Source of the DNA: Gemmatimonadaceae bacterium
GTDB taxonomy: Bacteria; Gemmatimonadota; Gemmatimonadetes; Gemmatimonadales; Gemmatimonadaceae
Assembly (NCBI GenBank): GCA_019752115.1
Contig: JAIEMN010000042.1
Location: 1 to 57,365 of the forward strand
Direction: 5' to 3'
Length of the DNA stretch: 57,365 nt
The notes beneath the pieces are model-generated. The model was not told the origin of the DNA and ran no database searches. It saw nothing but the letters and a program-made list of their open reading frames with translations. Positions within the stretch are counted from its first letter, which is position 1; each line of letters starts with the position of its first letter. This document shows, piece by piece, positions 48,068 through 57,365 of this stretch. The translations under genes were made by a program, and so were the position numbers.

Positions 48068-48600
48068 GCACCGACACGCGCAAGGTGCTGCTGCGGCAAT
48101 TCGATGTCGCGTGGCAGCTCGCGTGGTACCATCTGGAATCGCTGACGACGGAGGAGTGCCTGTGGCGCCCCGCCGATCGCGGGTTGCACGTGCACGAGGC
48201 CGCGCACCACTGGGTCGCCGACTGGCCGACGCACGAGGGCTATGATCTCGGGCCGTCGAGTGCCGGCTGGATTACCTGGCATTGGCTCTTCTGGTGGCGC
48301 ATGGCCGCCGATCACACGTGGGGCGCCGCGACGCTCACGCGCGAGGCGGTGCCGTGGCCCGGCCACGCCGATGGCCTGCGCACCGAACTCCGCGCCCTGC
48401 ACGATGCGTGGCGTGCCGCGCTGGCGAGCAGTGACGCCGGCACGCTGGCGTCGTCGGCGCGCGTCCGGTGGCCGTTTCGGGATCGCCCGCTCGCCGATCT
48501 CTTTGCCTGGGCCAACACCGAGCTCACCAAGAGCGCGGCCGAACTCGGCGCGTTGCGATTTCTCTACGCCGCCCGACGCGACGCGCGCGCGTCAGCCTGA
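48064..48600 (+). CDS. DinB-like protein
   Basis: A 178-residue helical protein with the DinB pattern: LLRQFDVAWQLAWYHLESLT, LHVHEAAHHWVADWP, and WITWHWLFWWRMAADHTWG with conserved His for a metal site. The final RWPFRDRPLADLFAWANTEL matches the closing helices. Function unknown; DinB folds often act with thiols or as hydrolases. GTG 48064 overlaps the GNAT-SnoaL stop. The 3' end overlaps the convergent CIA30 gene by 9 nt, so opposing transcription could interfere. Confidence 0.88.
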   Translation: MSTDTRKVLLRQFDVAWQLAWYHLESLTTEECLWRPADRGLHVHEAAHHWVADWPTHEGYDLGPSSAGWITWHWLFWWRMAADHTWGAATLTREAVPWPGHADGLRTELRALHDAWRAALASSDAGTLASSARVRWPFRDRPLADLFAWANTELTKSAAELGALRFLYAARRDARASA

Positions 48601-49107
48601 GCCCACCAACGCCAGGCGCGCAAGCGCCACGTCGGCCAGAAAGGCGACCTTGGCCCCGACAATCCCAATGCGCGCCAGCCCCGCGACATTGAGCGGCGCC
48701 GCCAGCGACACCGGCGCGAACGCCGACCAGGGGAGCACCACGGTGCGCCAGTCGCGCGCCACCGGCAGCTCGGCGCCGTAGTACTGCCATGGCGCGCGCG
48801 TATCCGCCGTGCGCAGGTGCACGAAGTACGACCCGGGGGTGCCGCACACCGTGAGCGCCACACCCGTGTAGGCGCGCGCATCGAACGGGGTACGCCCATC
48901 GCTGAGCGCGCGCGCCATCTGCACGAAGCCGCCGTTCCGCTCGAGCGAGACTTGCCCCACGAGTCGCAGGGCGCGGCGCCCCTGCACGTCGGTCAGTGCG
49001 CCCTGCGCGTTGGAGACGCCCCCCATGACGCGATCGGTGAACACCGTCCACCCTCGGGCGTCGGTGCTGACCGTGAAGTCGTCGAGGAGGAGGTCGGTGG
49101 ACGGCAT
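48592..49107 (-). CDS. CIA30 (NDUFAF1-like) family protein
   Basis: A 171-residue beta-sandwich protein of the CIA30/carbohydrate-binding-like fold. Its start, LLDDFTVSTDARGWTVFTDRVMGGVSNA, contains the invariant W-x-x-x-x-D-x-V-M-G-G-x-S signature. NGGFVQMARAL, YTGVALTVCGTPGSYFVHLR, DWRTVVLPWSAFAP and IGIVGAKVAFLADVALARLAL follow. In eukaryotes the family assists complex I assembly; bacterial members are uncharacterised. No signal peptide is seen, so it is cytosolic. It lies 15 nt downstream of the DUF808 gene and is probably cotranscribed with it. Confidence 0.92.
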   Translation of the reverse strand: MPSTDLLLDDFTVSTDARGWTVFTDRVMGGVSNAQGALTDVQGRRALRLVGQVSLERNGGFVQMARALSDGRTPFDARAYTGVALTVCGTPGSYFVHLRTADTRAPWQYYGAELPVARDWRTVVLPWSAFAPVSLAAPLNVAGLARIGIVGAKVAFLADVALARLALVGSG

Positions 49108-49122
49108 GCGACGCGCGTGACC

Positions 49123-50049
49123 TTACGCCTGTGCCTTGCGTGACGCCTTTCGCACGCGCTTTCCCATCTCGAACAGCAGCACACACCCCGCACCGGCCAG
49201 CACCCCGAACACGCCATCGAGCGTCATGCTCACGAGGCTGGCGAGCACGCCGTTCACCGCGTGGACGCGCTCCACGATCCCTTCGAACGCATGCGCGACG
49301 GGGTGCACGCCGTGTACCAGAATGCCACCACCCACGGTGAACATCGCCGCAGTGCCCACCACACTCAGCGTGCGCATCATCTTGGGCGCGGCGGCGAGAA
49401 TCAGTCGCCCCGTCTTCACGCTCGCGGCCGCACCACTCTGCACCATCTTGAGCCCCAGATCGTCGAGCTTCACGATCCCTGCGACCAGGCCATAGACGAA
49501 CACCGTCGCCGCCACGCCGATGATCGCCAGCACCGTGGCCTGCTCGGTGAGCGTGCGCCCGCCGAGCGTACCCAGCGCGATCACCACGATCTCCGCCGAC
49601 AGCACGAAGTCGGTGCGGATGGCGCCCTTGATCTTCTCCTGTTCGTAGGCGGCGAGATCGACTTCCGGCTCGTGCTCGTGCGCCACGGCCACCGCGGTGG
49701 ATTCGTCCTCGTCGTGCGGCAGCCACTTATGGGCGAGCTTCTCCACGCCTTCAAAGCAGAGGAAGAGACCGCCCAGCATCAGCACCGGCTGAATCCAGCT
49801 GGGGGCGAACGCGCTGAGCAGGAGCGCGATCGGCACGAGGATCACCTTGTTGATCAGCGATCCCTTGGCGACGCCCCACACCACCGGCAATTCGCGCTCG
49901 GCGGCGAACCCGGCCACCTGCTGCGCATTGAGCGCGAGATCGTCGCCCATGATCCCGGACGTCTTGGTGGCCGCCGTCTTGGTGAGGGCGGAGACGTCGT
50001 CGAGGAGCGACGTGATATCGTCGAGCAGAGCCAGCAGACTGGAAGCCAT
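49123..50049 (-). CDS. DUF808 (YedI-like) membrane protein
   Basis: A 308-residue integral membrane protein. The soluble start MASSLLALLDDITSLLDDVS, followed by KTAATKTSGIMGDDLALNAQ, is the diagnostic DUF808 N-terminus. ELPVVWGVAKGSLINKVILV then leads to several membrane helices (ILVPIALLLSAFAPSWI, VIALGTLGGRTLTEQATVLA, FTVGGGILVHGVHP, LDGVFGVLAGAGCVLLFEMG) and a basic C-terminus. Family function is unknown. The length is normal for the family (about 300-320). It heads a two-gene operon with the CIA30 protein and is divergent from the broken outer-membrane-type gene. Confidence 0.92.
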   Translation of the reverse strand: MASSLLALLDDITSLLDDVSALTKTAATKTSGIMGDDLALNAQQVAGFAAERELPVVWGVAKGSLINKVILVPIALLLSAFAPSWIQPVLMLGGLFLCFEGVEKLAHKWLPHDEDESTAVAVAHEHEPEVDLAAYEQEKIKGAIRTDFVLSAEIVVIALGTLGGRTLTEQATVLAIIGVAATVFVYGLVAGIVKLDDLGLKMVQSGAAASVKTGRLILAAAPKMMRTLSVVGTAAMFTVGGGILVHGVHPVAHAFEGIVERVHAVNGVLASLVSMTLDGVFGVLAGAGCVLLFEMGKRVRKASRKAQA

Positions 50050-50225
50050 ACCGAAGCAACGGTCCCGAAAAGGGGGCGGGGGAGCGGGTGCCGAATGATC
50101 TCCGGGTCCGGAAAGGCGCGCTACGGGGGGCGCACGCGCCCAACGGAAAATCGGACCGGACAGTAGGATTGGAACGACCGAGAGGTCACTGACGGATCCC
50201 GCCCCGTCTCGAGAGGTCCCGCCCC

Positions 50226-51020
50226 ATGCGCTGTTCGCGCAGCCGGTTCACGAAGGTGCTGGTGTTCGCTGCGGCGCTCGGCGCGCCAGTGGCGCGGTTG
50301 GCCGCGTAGGCCGATGAGATTCAGGTCTATACCGGCGGGCTCGCGGCCGTCGGCACCTTCAATCTCACGATCCACAACAACATCACGCCCAAAGGCATCG
50401 CCACGGCCGGGTTTCCCGGTGCGGTGACGAGCAATCACTCGTGGAACGGCGTCCCGGAGTGGGCGTACGGGGCAACCAAGTGGCTCGAGCTCGGCCTCTA
50501 CATGCCGCTGTACACGCTCGACTCGCATCAGGGCTTTGGCCTCGACGGCTTCAAGCTGCGTACGCTCGTCGCCCGCCCGAATGGCGACCAGCACACCTTC
50601 GCCTACGGCCTGGGCTGGGAGCTCGGCTTCAACGCCAAGCGCTGGGATCCGAACCGCATCGCCTCGGAGTTCCGCCCCATTCTCGCATGGCATCTCAAGA
50701 AGTGGGATCTCGTGACCAACCCGATCGTCGATACCGACTACAAGGGCGGGCTCAAGAATCTCGACTTCGCGCCCTCCACGCGCGTCGCCTACAACATCAA
50801 TGCGACGTGGGCCGTGGCCGGTGAGGAGTATGCGGATCTTGGCACCCTGAACCACCTGATCGGCGGTCGCGCGGCGTCCCATCAGGTATGGGGCGCCGTC
50901 GATCACGCCGGCCGCGTGTGGGATGTGGAAGTCGGCGCCGGCTACGGCCTCACGAACAGTGCCGACAAGTTCGTCCTCAAGATGATCCTGGCGCGCGACC
51001 TCCACGTGCGGCAGAAGTAG
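50226..51020 (+). pseudogene. outer-membrane-type protein interrupted by an amber codon at the signal peptide end
   Basis: The reading frame starts at ATG 50226 with a signal peptide (FTKVLVFAAALGAPVARLAA) but meets TAG at 50307-50309 (codon 28). It then resumes in the same frame as ADEIQVYTGGLAAVGTFNLT and runs intact for 236 codons to TAG 51020. The downstream part (NHSWNGVPEWAYGATKWLEL, FGLDGFKLRTLVARPNGD, FRPILAWHLKKWD) matches a family of hypothetical beta-barrel-like envelope proteins whose mature ends begin with such an ADEIQVY segment. A single C-to-T change of CAG would give this stop. Expression requires readthrough; internal restart at GTG 50424 would lack export. A sequencing error is also possible. 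Confidence 0.8.
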
Positions 51021-51035
51021 CGCGCCGCGCGCGGC

Positions 51036-51110
51036 TCAGGCAGCCACCAGCAGGTTGCCGTCCAGGATCAACAATGACGAGCCAGGTGGGGCGGCGGGAT
51101 GGGTGGTCAT
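51036..51110 (-). CDS. possible 24-residue small protein
   Basis: A short frame from ATG 51110 encodes MTTHPAAPPGSSLLILDG followed by NLLVAA and TGA. GGAG lies 5-7 nt before the ATG, and a 7-bp hairpin (GTCGGCC with GGCCGAC, near 51139-51157) lies in its leader. The hydrophobic end could insert in a membrane. No family recognised. The rest of the 51021-51302 gap shows no other feature except the hairpin at 51274. Could be chance or a degraded gene. Confidence 0.25.
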   Translation of the reverse strand: MTTHPAAPPGSSLLILDGNLLVAA

Positions 51111-51273
51111 AGGGGCTCCGGCAGAGGCGTGCTGATGGGTCGGCCGTTGCGGGCCGACGGGACACCCACCAGCCAAGCATTTTCCGCACCAGCGCTCGGA
51201 TTTGACCTAAGCCGTGTTGCAGCAATGGCTTATGTGGATGATCCGGCCGTGCCCGTCGTCTATCGGTTCGATG

Positions 51274-51290
51274 CGTGGCGTCACGCCACG
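51274..51290 (-). terminator. candidate hairpin terminator after the VanZ gene
   Basis: CGTGGCG and CGCCACG form a perfect 7-bp stem with a TCA loop, 12 nt beyond the VanZ-family stop on the minus strand. There is no T-run after it, so termination is only probable if Rho-assisted. Confidence 0.35.
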
Positions 51291-51302
51291 TGACATCGCC
51301 GG

Positions 51303-52589
51303 TCAGGCCGTGCGACGCAGCGGCGCGGGGGGCCGGGCGGCCAGTTCCACCAGCAGCTGCCGGCGCTTCACCAGCGCCCGCACGTGCGCCCGCTGCAGCA
51401 CATACACATAGGCACCGAAGACTGCCGCGACCTGCGTCAGCAGGAAGAGCAGCACGCTCGCGCCGTACGCGTCATGAAACCCGCGGGCGCCCTCGAGCAG
51501 GGCCGAAGCGAGCACCGTGAAGACGAGCACGCGCGGCAGCACCTGCCGCATGCGACGGCTGTCGCGGCCGTGAAATTCGGCTCCCATGTATCCCACGAGC
51601 GTGAACGCCGCGAGGTGCTCGAGGGCGCGATACACCATGGGCTGCGAGAGGGCGACGTTCGGCGGCGTCAGCGCCAGCGTGCCGCGCCAGCCAAAGCCGG
51701 CGTCGGTGAGTGGCCACAACGACGAGAGCGCGAGATAGGTCGCGAACACCGGAAACACGAGCCGCAACGTCGGCAGCTCGAAGCGTCGGGGGCTGATATC
51801 GGGGGCGCGTTGCATGGCGGCATCGCGCCACGTGGCCGCCGCGAGCGTGACGCCCACGGCGGCGACCACGATATCCCAGGCGCCACGCGCGCCCGGAACT
51901 ACGGAGACCAGCACCCACGCCGCCGGGAAGGCCACCAGCCAGCGCGTCGCTCGTCGCCCCGACGCCGGTGCGACATACGCGCCGTGCACGGTGCCCAGCA
52001 CCGCGCCAGCGACGATCGACAGGAGCAGCAGCAGTACGCGGCGTTCGTCGCCTTCACTCCCCAATCCGAGCAGCCAGGCGAGCGGCACGAGCAGATACAC
52101 GAGCCCCATGAGCGGGAGCTCGAGCGCCAGCGACTGCACCGTGTCCTCGCTCTCCACATAGCGACTCACGCGCGCGAAGAGCAGGGCACCGAGCAGCGCG
52201 CCGGCGGTGTTCGTCGCCACGTCGAGCAGCGAACTGAAGCGATCGGGCGCGAAGAGCTGCGCTGTTTCGATCGCGGCACTGAGCCCGGCGCCGAGCAGCA
52301 GCACGCGGCGCCAATCGGCAGGCGCGCCGCGCGGGCGGGTGAGCTGATGCACGAACCCGAAGGGCACGAACATCAGCACGTTCATGACGAGATCGGACCA
52401 GGTCCAGATCGTGGTGAGCCCGTGCGCCGGCGTCAGCTGAAAGCGGAAGGGCGCGAGCGTGATGACCGCCGTGGTGAGTGCCAGATAGCCGAGTACGGCC
52501 CGGCCCAGCCGAAGCGCGGTGAAATCGGCGGCTCGGCGGAAGCGGGGGCGCGGGGTCGGGGCAGACGGCGTCGTCCGGGGGTGGCTCAT
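51303..52589 (-). CDS. VanZ family membrane protein
   Basis: A 428-residue membrane protein with about nine or ten helices and two VanZ-like halves. The first shows LVMNVLMFVPFGFVHQLTRP and LSAAIETAQLFAPDRFSSLL followed by DVATNTAGALLGALLFARV, the classical VanZ motifs with N-x-x-x-F-x-P-x-G, E-x-x-Q and D-x-x-x-N-x-x-G. The second half has ALEHLAAFTLVGYMGAEFHG and ALLEGARGFHDAYGASVLLF. VanZ is linked to teicoplanin resistance in enterococci, but environmental members have unknown envelope roles. ATG 52589 is preferred over GTG 52613. The gene is divergent from the second VPS10-like gene. Confidence 0.9.
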   Translation of the reverse strand: MSHPRTTPSAPTPRPRFRRAADFTALRLGRAVLGYLALTTAVITLAPFRFQLTPAHGLTTIWTWSDLVMNVLMFVPFGFVHQLTRPRGAPADWRRVLLLGAGLSAAIETAQLFAPDRFSSLLDVATNTAGALLGALLFARVSRYVESEDTVQSLALELPLMGLVYLLVPLAWLLGLGSEGDERRVLLLLLSIVAGAVLGTVHGAYVAPASGRRATRWLVAFPAAWVLVSVVPGARGAWDIVVAAVGVTLAAATWRDAAMQRAPDISPRRFELPTLRLVFPVFATYLALSSLWPLTDAGFGWRGTLALTPPNVALSQPMVYRALEHLAAFTLVGYMGAEFHGRDSRRMRQVLPRVLVFTVLASALLEGARGFHDAYGASVLLFLLTQVAAVFGAYVYVLQRAHVRALVKRRQLLVELAARPPAPLRRTA

Positions 52590-52664
52590 CGTGCTGGGAA
52601 GTATCGGCAGCACCCCCCCGACAGATGATCCGCCCCGGTCACGCCGTGGGCGCCCACCGAATGC

Positions 52665-52672
52665 TACCTTTG
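52665..52672 (+). promoter_or_regulatory. candidate promoter box TACCTTTG
   Basis: gcTACCTTTG lies 36 nt before the ATG of the second VPS10-like gene, the same spacing as TATCTTTG before the sugar permease gene. It fits TAnnTTTG exactly. Confidence 0.45.
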
Positions 52673-52708
52673 CCTGTCGCCCCCGTTCACGTTCAGCCCC
52701 GATCTGTG

Positions 52709-55700
52709 ATGCGTATTTGCCTCTTTGCGGCCGGCCTCCTTGGCGCGGCCGTCTCGACTGCCCATGCCCAGCAGCCCGCGCCCAAGTCGGCGCCCAAGTC
52801 GGCCCCGGCCAAGGCCGCTCCCGCCAGGGCCGCCGCCGCCGCCAGTGCCCTGGACTCGTCGACCTTTGCCGCGCTCGCGTGGCGCAACGTTGGCCCGTCG
52901 CGCGGTGGCCGCGCGAATGCGATCGCCGGCATCCCGTCCAATCCGCTGGTCTACTTTGCCGGCTACACCGGCGGCGGGCTGTGGCGCACCGACGATGCGG
53001 GGCTGAACTGGAAGAACATTTCCGACGGGCAGTTCACGTCGAGCACCATTGGCGCGATCGCGGTGGCGCCGAGCGACGAGAACGTGATCTACGTGGGCAC
53101 CGGCGAGCATGCCGTGCGCGGCCAGTCGAGCACGTACGGCGACGGCATGTACAAGAGCACCGACCAGGGGCGCACCTGGAAGAAGATCGGGCTCGAGCTG
53201 TCGAAGCAGATCAGCGCTGTGCGCGTGCATCCGACCAATCCGGAGGTCGTGTACGTGGCCGTGCAGGGCGATCGCTGGAAGGGGACGGCGGATCGCGGCA
53301 TCTATCGTAGCACGGATGGCGGCACGACGTGGACGCAGGTGCTCAAGGGGGTGAACGCGACGAGTGGCGCGAGCGATCTGAGCATGGACGCCACCAATCC
53401 GCGCATCCTGTACGCGGCGATGTGGGATCATCAGCGCATGCCCTGGATGGTGCGCTCGGGTGGTGCGGGCAGCGGGATCTGGAAGAGCACGGATGGCGGC
53501 GACACGTGGACGCGCCTGAGCGAGGGGCTCCCCAAGCTGATGGGCAAGATCGGCGTGGCGGTCTCGCCGGCCAATCCGGAGCGCGTGTTTGCGATTGTGG
53601 AGGCGGAGGCCGGTGGCCTCTACCGCAGCGATGACGCCGGCAAGACGTGGCGCCTCCTGAGCGGCGATCGCCTCATTCAGACGCGGTCGTGGTACTACAT
53701 GAACGTCACCGCCGATCCGAAGAACGAGAATGTGGTGTGGGTGATGAACGCCCCGATCGTGCGCAGTATCGATGGCGGCCGCACCTTCCAGACGGTGCCG
53801 GCGATGCACGGCGACAATCACCAGCTGTGGATCAATCCGCGCGACTCACGGTATGTCGCCAACGCGAACGATGGCGGCGCGAGTGTATCGCTCGACGGCG
53901 GGAAGAGCTGGAGCACGCAGGACAACCAGCCCACGGCCCAGTTCTATCACGTCGCCGTGGACGATGGTTTCCCCTACAAGCTCTACGGCGGGCAGCAGGA
54001 CAACTCGTCGGTGATGCTCAAGAGCTTCAGCGACATGGGGCGCGTGGACATCCGCGACTGGGACATCGGCCCGGGGTGTGAAAGCGCCAACATGGGGGTG
54101 AGCGCGAAGAACCCGCGCTATGTGTATGGCGGCTGCTATCAGGGGATCATCGAAGAGGTCGATCAGGCGACGGGGCTGCGGCGCGCGATCATGCCGTGGC
54201 CGGAGATGAACCTCACCGAACCGACCGACAAGACGAAGTACCGCTACAACTGGACGGCGCCGATCGAGGTGTCGCAGCACGACGACAAGGTCGTGTACCA
54301 TGGCGGCAACGTGCTCTTCAAGACGACCGATCGCGGCCAGCACTGGACGCCGATCTCGGGCGATCTGACCAAGAACGACAAGAGTCGGCAGGGATGGGGT
54401 GGCGGGCCGATCACCAACGAGGGCGCCGGCGGTGAGGTGTACGCCGCGATCGTGGTGATCGAGGAGTCGCCGCACGATGCCAACACGCTCTACGTGGGCA
54501 CCGACGACGGCGTCATTCAGCGCACCCGCGACGGCGGCAAGACGTGGACGAACATCACGCCGGCCTCGTGGGGCGACGGGCTGGTGAATGAGATCGCGGT
54601 GTCGCCGTTCGACGCCGGCACGATCTACGTCTCCTTCCGCAAGGATCGTCTCGGCGATTACACGCCGCATGTGTATGTCTCGCGTGACTACGGCGCGACC
54701 TTCACCGAAATGGTGAGCGGCTTCCGCCCCAATGAGCCGGTGCGGGTCGTGCGCGAAGACCCGGCGCGAAAGGGGCTGCTCTACGCCGGCACCGAAACCG
54801 GCGTGTACGTGAGCTACGATGGCGGCGCGTGGATGCCGTTCACGGGTTTCCCGGTGACTCCGGTGACCGACCTCGCGGTGAAGCACGGCGATCTCATCGC
54901 CTCCACCGAAGGGCGGGCGTTCTGGATTCTCGATGATCTGTCGGTGCTGCGGCAGCGCGCCGATTCTCTGGCGAGTGCGGCGGTGCATCTCTACGCGCCG
55001 CGACCCGCCGTGCTGCTGGCCAGCGGCACGGCCCCGGCCGGCAAGGGGGCGGGCGCCAACCCCGCCTTCGGCGCCACGGTGTATTTCCGCCTTGCGGCTG
55101 CGCCCGACAGCGTGACGACCGTGTCGGTGGAGTTCCTCGACAGCAAGGGTACGGTGGTGCGGTCGTTTGCCTCGAAGGATTCGCTCAACAAGCTCACCGC
55201 CAAGGCGGGGCTCAACAGCCTGTACTGGAACCTCCGCCGCGCGGCGCCGGCGCGCCTGGGAACGGTACTGCTCTTTGGCGCGCCGAACGATGGCGGGGCG
55301 CATGTGTCACCGGGGCAGTACAGCGTGCGGCTGACGTTCACGCAGGGCGGCAAGAGCACGGTGCTCACGCGCCCGCTCACCGTGCAGAACGATCCGCGCG
55401 TCACGACGCCGGTGGCTTTGGTGGCGGAGCGTGACTCGGTGGCGAATCTGCTGTCCACGCGCATCAACGAGATTCACGAAAGCGTGCTGCGCCTGCGCGA
55501 TGTGAAGGGGCAGGTGGCGGGCTTTGTGCAGCGCGCCAAGGAGACGAGCGCGCCCGATACCATCGCGGCGGCGGGCAAGGCGCTCACCGGCAAGCTCGAC
55601 AAGATGGACCCGCGGCTCACCACCAAGGCGGCGAACGGGCAGGACATCATCAACTACGCCAACGGCATCAACGGGCAGTATGGCTTCCTGCTTGGCCAGG

Positions 55701-55888
55701 TCGAGGGGAATACGCAGCTGACGCAGCCGGTGAAGGATCGGTTGGTGGAGTTGGAGAAGATTTGGGCGGCCTTGCGTGCGGAGGTCGAGCAGATTGAACT
55801 CGTCGATGTGCCGGCATTCAACAAGCTCCTGGAGTCCAAGGGCGTGCCGGGTGTCGTCTCGGCGAAGAAGAAGGGGCCCATCGCATGA
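52709..55888 (+). CDS. second secreted VPS10/sortilin-like BNR-repeat protein
   Basis: A 1059-residue exported protein (signal MRICLFAAGLLGAAVSTAHA) with a Lys/Ala/Pro-rich linker containing PKSAPKSAPAKAAPA. The propeller begins AWRNVGPSRGGRANAIAGIP and carries Asp-box turns RTDDAGLNW, KSTDQGRTW, RSTDGGTTW, KSTDGGDTW, RSDDAGKTW, RSIDGGRTF, KTTDRGQHW and RTRDGGKTW. A C-terminal FN3-like part (about 800-920) and a helical end follow. It is paralogous in plan to the protein at 26914 but clearly diverged and lacks its Gly-rich insertions. Probably periplasmic or secreted; relatives are called glycosyl hydrolases, without a proven reaction. The stop overlaps the next ATG (ATGA). Confidence 0.9.
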   Translation: MRICLFAAGLLGAAVSTAHAQQPAPKSAPKSAPAKAAPARAAAAASALDSSTFAALAWRNVGPSRGGRANAIAGIPSNPLVYFAGYTGGGLWRTDDAGLNWKNISDGQFTSSTIGAIAVAPSDENVIYVGTGEHAVRGQSSTYGDGMYKSTDQGRTWKKIGLELSKQISAVRVHPTNPEVVYVAVQGDRWKGTADRGIYRSTDGGTTWTQVLKGVNATSGASDLSMDATNPRILYAAMWDHQRMPWMVRSGGAGSGIWKSTDGGDTWTRLSEGLPKLMGKIGVAVSPANPERVFAIVEAEAGGLYRSDDAGKTWRLLSGDRLIQTRSWYYMNVTADPKNENVVWVMNAPIVRSIDGGRTFQTVPAMHGDNHQLWINPRDSRYVANANDGGASVSLDGGKSWSTQDNQPTAQFYHVAVDDGFPYKLYGGQQDNSSVMLKSFSDMGRVDIRDWDIGPGCESANMGVSAKNPRYVYGGCYQGIIEEVDQATGLRRAIMPWPEMNLTEPTDKTKYRYNWTAPIEVSQHDDKVVYHGGNVLFKTTDRGQHWTPISGDLTKNDKSRQGWGGGPITNEGAGGEVYAAIVVIEESPHDANTLYVGTDDGVIQRTRDGGKTWTNITPASWGDGLVNEIAVSPFDAGTIYVSFRKDRLGDYTPHVYVSRDYGATFTEMVSGFRPNEPVRVVREDPARKGLLYAGTETGVYVSYDGGAWMPFTGFPVTPVTDLAVKHGDLIASTEGRAFWILDDLSVLRQRADSLASAAVHLYAPRPAVLLASGTAPAGKGAGANPAFGATVYFRLAAAPDSVTTVSVEFLDSKGTVVRSFASKDSLNKLTAKAGLNSLYWNLRRAAPARLGTVLLFGAPNDGGAHVSPGQYSVRLTFTQGGKSTVLTRPLTVQNDPRVTTPVALVAERDSVANLLSTRINEIHESVLRLRDVKGQVAGFVQRAKETSAPDTIAAAGKALTGKLDKMDPRLTTKAANGQDIINYANGINGQYGFLLGQVEGNTQLTQPVKDRLVELEKIWAALRAEVEQIELVDVPAFNKLLESKGVPGVVSAKKKGPIA

Positions 55889-57153
55889 TTCGCGCGGAAG
55901 CGTCTCGCGCGGAGGCACGGTGGGCACGGAGGGGCACGGAGGTGCTGCTGTGTGTGCTGCCTTCGCTCCTCGTCGCTCAGAAGAAGCCCGCTGCGCCGGC
56001 GGTGTATGTGCCGCCGGCTGGGGCGTGGGAGCGAAAGTCGCCGAGTGCGGTGGGGCTCGATTCGGTGAAGCTCGAGGCGGCGATTGCCTTTGCGAAGTCG
56101 AAGGAGAGCAAGACGCCGCGCGAGTGGGAGCAGAATCACTACCAGACGTTCGGGCGTGAGCCGCTGGGGCAGCTGATTGGCCCGATCATCGACCGCGGCG
56201 ACGAAACGGGGCTCATCATTCGCAAGGGCTACGTGGTGGCGCAGTGGGGGAACCCCGAGGCGATCGAGATGACCCACAGCGTGACCAAGAGCTTCTTGAG
56301 CACCGTGGTGGGGCTCGCGTTCGACGCGGGGCTGATCAAGAGCACGCAGGACACGGTGGCCAAGTATGTGCCACCCATTCTGCGCGCGATGCCCAACGGC
56401 ACCGGCTTCGCCGCCGACTGGCCGGGCGATGCCCGCTGGCTCAAGCCGTTCGATTCGCCGCACAACAAGCGGCTCACGTGGGATGTGATGCTGCGGCAGA
56501 CGAGTGACTGGGAAGGCACGCTCTGGGGCAAGCCCGAGTGGGCCGATCGCCCCGCGCAGGATGCGAGCACCTGGCGCACGCGCCCGCGCGTGGAGCCGGG
56601 CACGGTGTACGAGTACAACGACGTGCGCGTGAATGCGCTGGCGCTCGCGACGCTCATGGTGTGGCGCAAGCCGCTTCCTGAGGTGCTCAAGGAGAGGATC
56701 ATGGACCCGATCGGTGCCTCGAACACGTGGCGCTGGTACGGCTATGACAACTCGTGGGTGATTCTCGACGGCAAGCAGGTGCAGAGCGTGAGCGGCGGCG
56801 GCCACTGGGGCGGCGGCATGTTCATCAACGCGTGGGACATGGCCCGCTTTGGCCTGCTCACGCTGCGCCGCGGCAAGTGGGGCGACAAGCAGCTGCTGAG
56901 CGATGCGTGGGTGACGCAGGCGCTCACCCCCACGAAGGTGCAGCCGACCTACGGCTTCATGAACTGGTTCACGAACCCGGACCACAAGTTCCTCGCGAGC
57001 GCTCCGGTGGAAGCCTTTGTGCACGTGGGGAATGGGAACAACATCATTTACGTCGATCCCGTGAATGACATCATTGCGGTAGTGCGGTGGATTGATACGA
57101 CGCCGTCGATTGATGGGTTTGTGCAGAGGATGCTGGCGGCGGTACAGCGCTAA
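55885..57153 (+). CDS. exported serine hydrolase (beta-lactamase class C fold)
   Basis: A 422-residue protein translationally coupled to the VPS10-like gene (ATGA). The N-terminus is odd: an Arg/Ala/Glu-rich stretch (residues 1-17) encoded partly by GGCACGGAG repeats precedes a short hydrophobic core, LLCVLPSLLVAQ. The catalytic Ser and Lys are Ser132 and Lys135 in MTHSVTKSFLSTV. The second motif reads YEYNDVRVN (YND at 244-246 instead of YxN), and GGGHWGGGMFINAWDMARFG is the conserved late segment. The family includes esterases, peptidases and 6-aminohexanoate-dimer hydrolase-like enzymes. The long open N-terminus leaves the true start uncertain, but ATG 55885 overlaps the preceding stop. 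Confidence 0.88.
   Translation: MIRAEASRAEARWARRGTEVLLCVLPSLLVAQKKPAAPAVYVPPAGAWERKSPSAVGLDSVKLEAAIAFAKSKESKTPREWEQNHYQTFGREPLGQLIGPIIDRGDETGLIIRKGYVVAQWGNPEAIEMTHSVTKSFLSTVVGLAFDAGLIKSTQDTVAKYVPPILRAMPNGTGFAADWPGDARWLKPFDSPHNKRLTWDVMLRQTSDWEGTLWGKPEWADRPAQDASTWRTRPRVEPGTVYEYNDVRVNALALATLMVWRKPLPEVLKERIMDPIGASNTWRWYGYDNSWVILDGKQVQSVSGGGHWGGGMFINAWDMARFGLLTLRRGKWGDKQLLSDAWVTQALTPTKVQPTYGFMNWFTNPDHKFLASAPVEAFVHVGNGNNIIYVDPVNDIIAVVRWIDTTPSIDGFVQRMLAAVQR
55911..55943. repeat. GGCACGGAG repeats within the start of the serine hydrolase gene
   Basis: Three units of the form GGCACGG, at 55914, 55923 and 55933, spaced 9 and 10 nt, lie inside codons 9-20 of the gene. They resemble CACAGAGG and CACGAAGG units in the intergenic dyads, but no inverted arm is visible nearby. 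Confidence 0.6.
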
Positions 57154-57156
57154 GCT

Positions 57157-57300
57157 CAGAAGTCAGAGGTCAGAGGTCAGATATGAGTAACCCCTCAGGT
57201 ATCAGGGGGGAGGACGAAAGGGAGTGGGCATCAGGACCGCGGTTCATGCTGTCCTGATGCCCACTCCCTGTAACCCTTCCCCCTGATGCCTTGTATGTCC
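57157..57300. repeat. intergenic repeat block with an 18-bp perfect dyad
   Basis: GTCAGAG units (7-nt period) at 57162-57181 are followed by nested inverted repeats. GGGAGTGGGCATCAGGAC (57220-57237) pairs perfectly with 57251-57268, and the outer ATCAGGGGGGAGG near 57201 pairs imperfectly with CCTTCCCCCTGAT near 57276. It follows the serine hydrolase stop and may end its transcript. The rest of the window to 57365 holds no recognised gene. Confidence 0.85.
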
Positions 57301-57365
57301 AAGGTGATGCCTCGCAGGTCAGATTTGGGATGGCGGCAGCTCGCCTTCATGCCTCGTGCCGTGAG

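Follow-up and report, generated by a model that had tools for sequence, protein, structure and literature searches.

The window, by which we mean the whole stretch of 57,365 nucleotides analysed here, contains a gene whose reading frame is broken at a single codon. At 50226-51020 on the forward strand, an ATG is followed by 27 sense codons (MRCSRSRFTKVLVFAAALGAPVARLAA), a TAG, 236 open codons and a second TAG, all within a single frame. An earlier sequence-only reading had placed an in-frame TAG at 50307 with the frame open on both sides, and the continuous frame from the ATG at 50226 through 51020 bears this out. The part downstream of the interruption runs from the motif ADEIQVY to the terminal TAG at 51018-51020. 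In the window the gene order is DUF808, the interrupted gene, VanZ, sortilin-like and serine hydrolase (Table 1).

Table 1. Features of the interrupted gene and its surroundings, in window coordinates
Feature	Position	Strand	Remarks
DUF808 protein (PF05661)	49123..50049	-	Neighbour
Signal peptide, 27 codons from ATG 50226	50226..50306	+	Homologues carry one at the corresponding place
In-frame TAG replacing a glutamine codon	50307..50309	+	80 homologues: 56 CAG, 23 CAA, 1 without glutamine, 0 stops
Mature frame of predicted outer-membrane beta-barrel, 236 codons and stop TAG	50310..51020	+	Homologues, predicted structure
Predicted RNA stem-loop, beginning 3 nt downstream of the TAG	50312..50369	+	z -2.72; doubtful significance
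VanZ-like protein, first gene of inverted block	51303..52613	-	Neighbour
Sortilin-like repeat protein, inverted block	52625..55888	+	Neighbour
Serine hydrolase, beta-lactamase family, inverted block	55885..57153	+	Neighbour

The open frame around the TAG is more than a product of chance, because other proteins align with nearly all of the downstream frame (the best at 58% identity), because a peptide like the upstream one is rare in the window, and because a CAG or CAA codon occupies the junction in 79 of 80 homologues. The six frames of the window contain 311 ATG-to-stop stretches of 20-45 codons, of which two, the upstream peptide and one other, resemble signal peptides by thresholds chosen after the upstream peptide had been seen; of the two, the upstream peptide has the more hydrophobic core. 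Judged from sequence, the upstream signal peptide and the downstream frame are one gene, with the signal-peptide cleavage site probably at their junction. The homologue counts come from a scan of named genomes in which 205 relatives were confirmed and 80 kept for the junction-codon and conservation counts. Some of these 80 loci are near-duplicates of one another and, by contig coordinates, L096 and L010 are one locus, and L101, L123 and L136 coincide with L002, L011 and L012; for this reason we base our counts on the 80 alone. No sister strain was seen among the 80 loci kept of the 205 confirmed, where the best match is the one at 58% identity and very near records were possibly excluded.

What the TAG has replaced can be read from these homologues. 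In 79 of the 80 a glutamine just precedes the conserved DEIQVY motif, two residues before the DE in most, which is the position of the TAG in the window, and four residues before it in five. The previously suggested origin, one C-to-T change from CAG, agrees with a junction codon that is CAG in 56 homologues and CAA in 23, and a single CAG-to-TAG change is the simplest history and a well-supported one on the codon comparison. That the TAG coincides exactly with the signal-peptide junction is of little significance, because the family's usual glutamine sits there. The junction codon is also the first in the gene from which one transition gives a stop, with 15 further such codons following, so that its striking position needs no special cause.

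As to what the gene encoded, no Pfam family was found at a threshold of 1e-3 and no NCBIfam family at E values up to 1. A single AlphaFold prediction, made from an alignment of 8 sequences, gave a beta-barrel (pLDDT 77.5, pTM 0.75), for which the best Foldseek match was 4rl8 (E 7.8e-7, TM-scores 0.67 and 0.60), followed by FapF and other outer-membrane barrels. Hence the barrel fold of a COG4313-type channel was found in the model, and a significant match to the sequence family was not. The predicted fold suggests that the product of the interrupted gene would be an exported outer-membrane beta-barrel, and it may well have been a channel.

The distribution of the gene points to an accessory role. 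Protein matches were present in 8 of 41 genomes and, within the genus, in 4 of 25 (own genome included in both), the other three at 27-29% identity; the same-genus search omitted G269, G270 and G271 of the 29 other genomes. A class-wide draw yielded matches in 31 of 246 genomes, again with its own included, seven of the others reaching at least 48% identity and the best 58%. When the DNA at 48500-52700 was compared with the 29 other genomes of the genus, with ten candidate places scored per genome, the flanks matched and the gene did not, except for one 57-base piece (E 3e-4). Since same-genus protein matches are few and distant and the DNA search recovered the flanks without the gene in those 29 genomes, the gene appears to be dispensable. 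The plasmid search (run in 'near' mode) gave no match to 49900-51400, and no relative was confirmed in viral contigs, and we set aside a plasmid or viral origin. No common family was shared by the 10 neighbouring proteins at 7 of 9 homologue loci.

The gene also lies at a rearranged place. Six other genomes of the genus have the order DUF808, serine hydrolase, sortilin-like and VanZ (two of them without the sortilin-like gene in the stretch), and none of the six stretches holds a match to the interrupted protein. Relative to DUF808, the three-gene block at 51303-57153, on the right-hand side, is thus inverted compared with these six genomes, and the interrupted gene stands at the junction. By the coordinates of DNA matches, G006, G009 and G022 have the two flanking genes no more than 8 kb from each other, in the opposed orientation that the six compared genomes also show, and G166 and G270 have them on one contig in the relative orientation of the window, but separated by about 357 kb and 29 kb. 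Within 49000-57365, the block is not bordered by long inverted repeats. Both distribution and position fit an accessory gene in an unstable spot. Separately, an inverted repeat at 57197-57291, with 44-nt arms and a 7-nt loop, follows the serine hydrolase gene near the contig end and is possibly a terminator. No sigma-70-like promoter was found in 49950-51320, by a scan that may not fit this organism.

How would a UAG be decoded in this genome? The assembly comprises 5,171,001 bases in 83 contigs and is 97.14% complete, and it contains 47 matches to the Rfam tRNA family, all above the cut-off, among them a tRNA-Gln(CUG). The sequence-only reading had proposed searching for an amber-suppressor tRNA. 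Neither the Rfam family nor ARAGORN, run on the loci of the Rfam matches and on 15 genomic stretches, gave a CUA anticodon among the 47 matches (46 distinct tRNA sequences), and a suppressor tRNA was rejected on these grounds. A degenerate anticodon/T-loop pattern was uninformative, with 54 matches against 85 in a reversed control. The gene for release factor 1 (prfA) is intact (476 bits, cut-off 423), in-frame stops are absent from all 126 domain matches considered genome-wide (49 to Plug, 77 to Pkinase), and TAG closes 10 of 43 frames that were chosen by composition in the window, including the gene's own; together these led us to reject a change of code. As far as sequence can tell, TAG is an ordinary working stop in this organism, since no CUA tRNA was found, release factor 1 is intact and the domain matches lack stops. 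We therefore regard genome-wide reading of UAG, by a suppressor tRNA or an altered code, as highly improbable, even if the few per cent of the genome that the assembly lacks could conceivably hold such a tRNA gene. Two side observations arose from these searches. ARAGORN called a tRNA-Val(cac) at 49251-49342 (-) inside the DUF808 gene, which is probably a false positive because it is absent from the Rfam tRNA matches of the genome. In addition, contig C45 of the same genome has a large array of kinase genes at 92975-183389, a span of 90 kb that holds 26 of the 77 Ser/Thr kinase domain matches, all but one on the minus strand.

Readthrough at this codon alone is a different proposition, namely that the gene is expressed at low dose through occasional misreading of UAG, perhaps by the tRNA-Gln(CUG), which would restore the family residue, and perhaps with help from the predicted stem-loop. 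The presence of that tRNA is in keeping with it, as is a downstream frame that is still open, and the site seems tolerant because one homologue (L132) lacks the glutamine. The stem-loop is more stable than expected (2 of 200 shuffles were equally stable), and the part of PMC7918605 considered here describes in-frame stops that bacterial genes have kept. However, none of the 80 homologues has a stop, none of 30 tested from among them has a comparable structure (lowest z -1.69), and a z of -2.5 is reached by 3 of 77 coding stretches, which fall in this gene and the sortilin-like gene, one overlapping the TAG site. Nor is the stop found in a second genome, as are those in the part of PMC7918605 just mentioned, and the genome has release factor 1 and no tRNA found for UAG. 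The open frame and the stem-loop thus argue only faintly for the readthrough that had been suggested, and we think it improbable. A stronger version, in which the amber codon is a selected translational throttle, with tRNA-Gln(CUG) misreading UAG at the first mature residue and the new stem-loop assisting to give a low and tunable dose of wild-type protein, we consider more doubtful still. Were leaky readthrough demonstrated, the gene would illustrate how an amber codon at a tolerant residue can control the dose of a protein in nature.

A phase-like switch that toggles the junction codon had also been suggested. The nearby gene block is indeed inverted relative to relatives, but the junction codon lies outside that block, there are no direct or inverted repeats of at least 10 nt at 50180-50420, and the change is in all likelihood a single substitution. 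A switch was rejected for want of such repeats, and is in our estimation the least credible of the readings considered.

Compared with the 80 homologues, the mature frame shows neither a further stop nor any odd gap or insertion, and the codon-position GC (0.63/0.45/0.86) resembles that of intact neighbours, so the composition carries no sign of decay. The earlier claim that there is no other damage holds to this extent and needs qualifying beyond it: of 73 columns with a conservation of 90% or more, the mature protein departs from 8, against a median of 2 for the 81 sequences, and its terminal branch (0.57) is the longest of the 81, with a root-to-tip rank of 14. Only three others of the 81 equal or exceed 8 departures (L132 and L093 with 9 each, L095 with 8), and since these belong to the wider clade of the window gene, the departures and the branch may partly be a character of the clade. 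The long branch may also reflect sparse sampling only. A relaxed constraint on the mature frame is possible from these comparisons.

A gene that is intact but for one altered base, and whose codon-position composition is normal, is also what would be seen if the TAG were a sequencing, assembly or consensus error, or the base of a minority strain, and the organism's gene were intact. The draft state of the genome, in 83 contigs, and the lack of a stop in all 80 homologues favour this explanation, against which stands an assembly that is otherwise clean, with no in-frame stop in its 126 domain matches. We judge such an error unlikely on balance, although it is the most serious competitor. Thus, of the four origins previously offered for the TAG, two remain, a very recent mutation and a sequencing error; a suppressor tRNA and a phase-like switch are unsupported.

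We propose that the locus probably holds a recent nonsense null allele of a dispensable outer-membrane beta-barrel gene. A premature in-frame stop against intact homologues, which is the mark of a nonsense pseudogene or null allele, is what we find. In this proposal, one C-to-T change would have turned the family's junction glutamine codon from CAG into TAG, and the change would lie in the organism and not merely in the assembly. Translation would start at 50226, yield the signal peptide and end at codon 28. Beyond the stop, no ATG, GTG or TTG occurs in frame before the GTG at 50424, 39 codons downstream; a start there, which would give a product with neither the signal peptide nor the conserved N-terminus, was rejected. 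With a TAG at codon 28 and no suitable restart, the allele is therefore most likely null and the product presumably lost. The mutation would be so recent that neither a second stop nor an indel has accumulated. For annotation, the locus is best described as one interrupted gene and not as a 198-aa gene starting at GTG 50424. If the TAG is real, it captures gene loss cleanly at its earliest visible step, a single nonsense change in an accessory exported protein next to a local rearrangement.

How does the locus compare with known systems? At listing level, apart from PMC7918605, nothing in the literature was recognised as concerning this gene. At the level of the protein, the top Foldseek match of the predicted mature product is the COG4313 outer-membrane channel of Pseudomonas putida (PDB 4rl8), with 14% identity in the Foldseek alignment, and the product also matches the outer-membrane barrel of FapF (5o68). 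For the allele, the nearest comparison is with the single-nonsense bacterial pseudogenes and in-frame stop alleles, kept stops among them, of Belinky et al. (2021; PMC7918605), a set that, in the part of the paper considered here, takes in only stops at the same place in at least two genomes and shows dN/dS below 1. Unlike that set, as there described, the stop in the window is in one genome and has no close relative for dN/dS; like its alleles, the window gene has exchanged a sense codon for a stop within an otherwise open and conserved frame.
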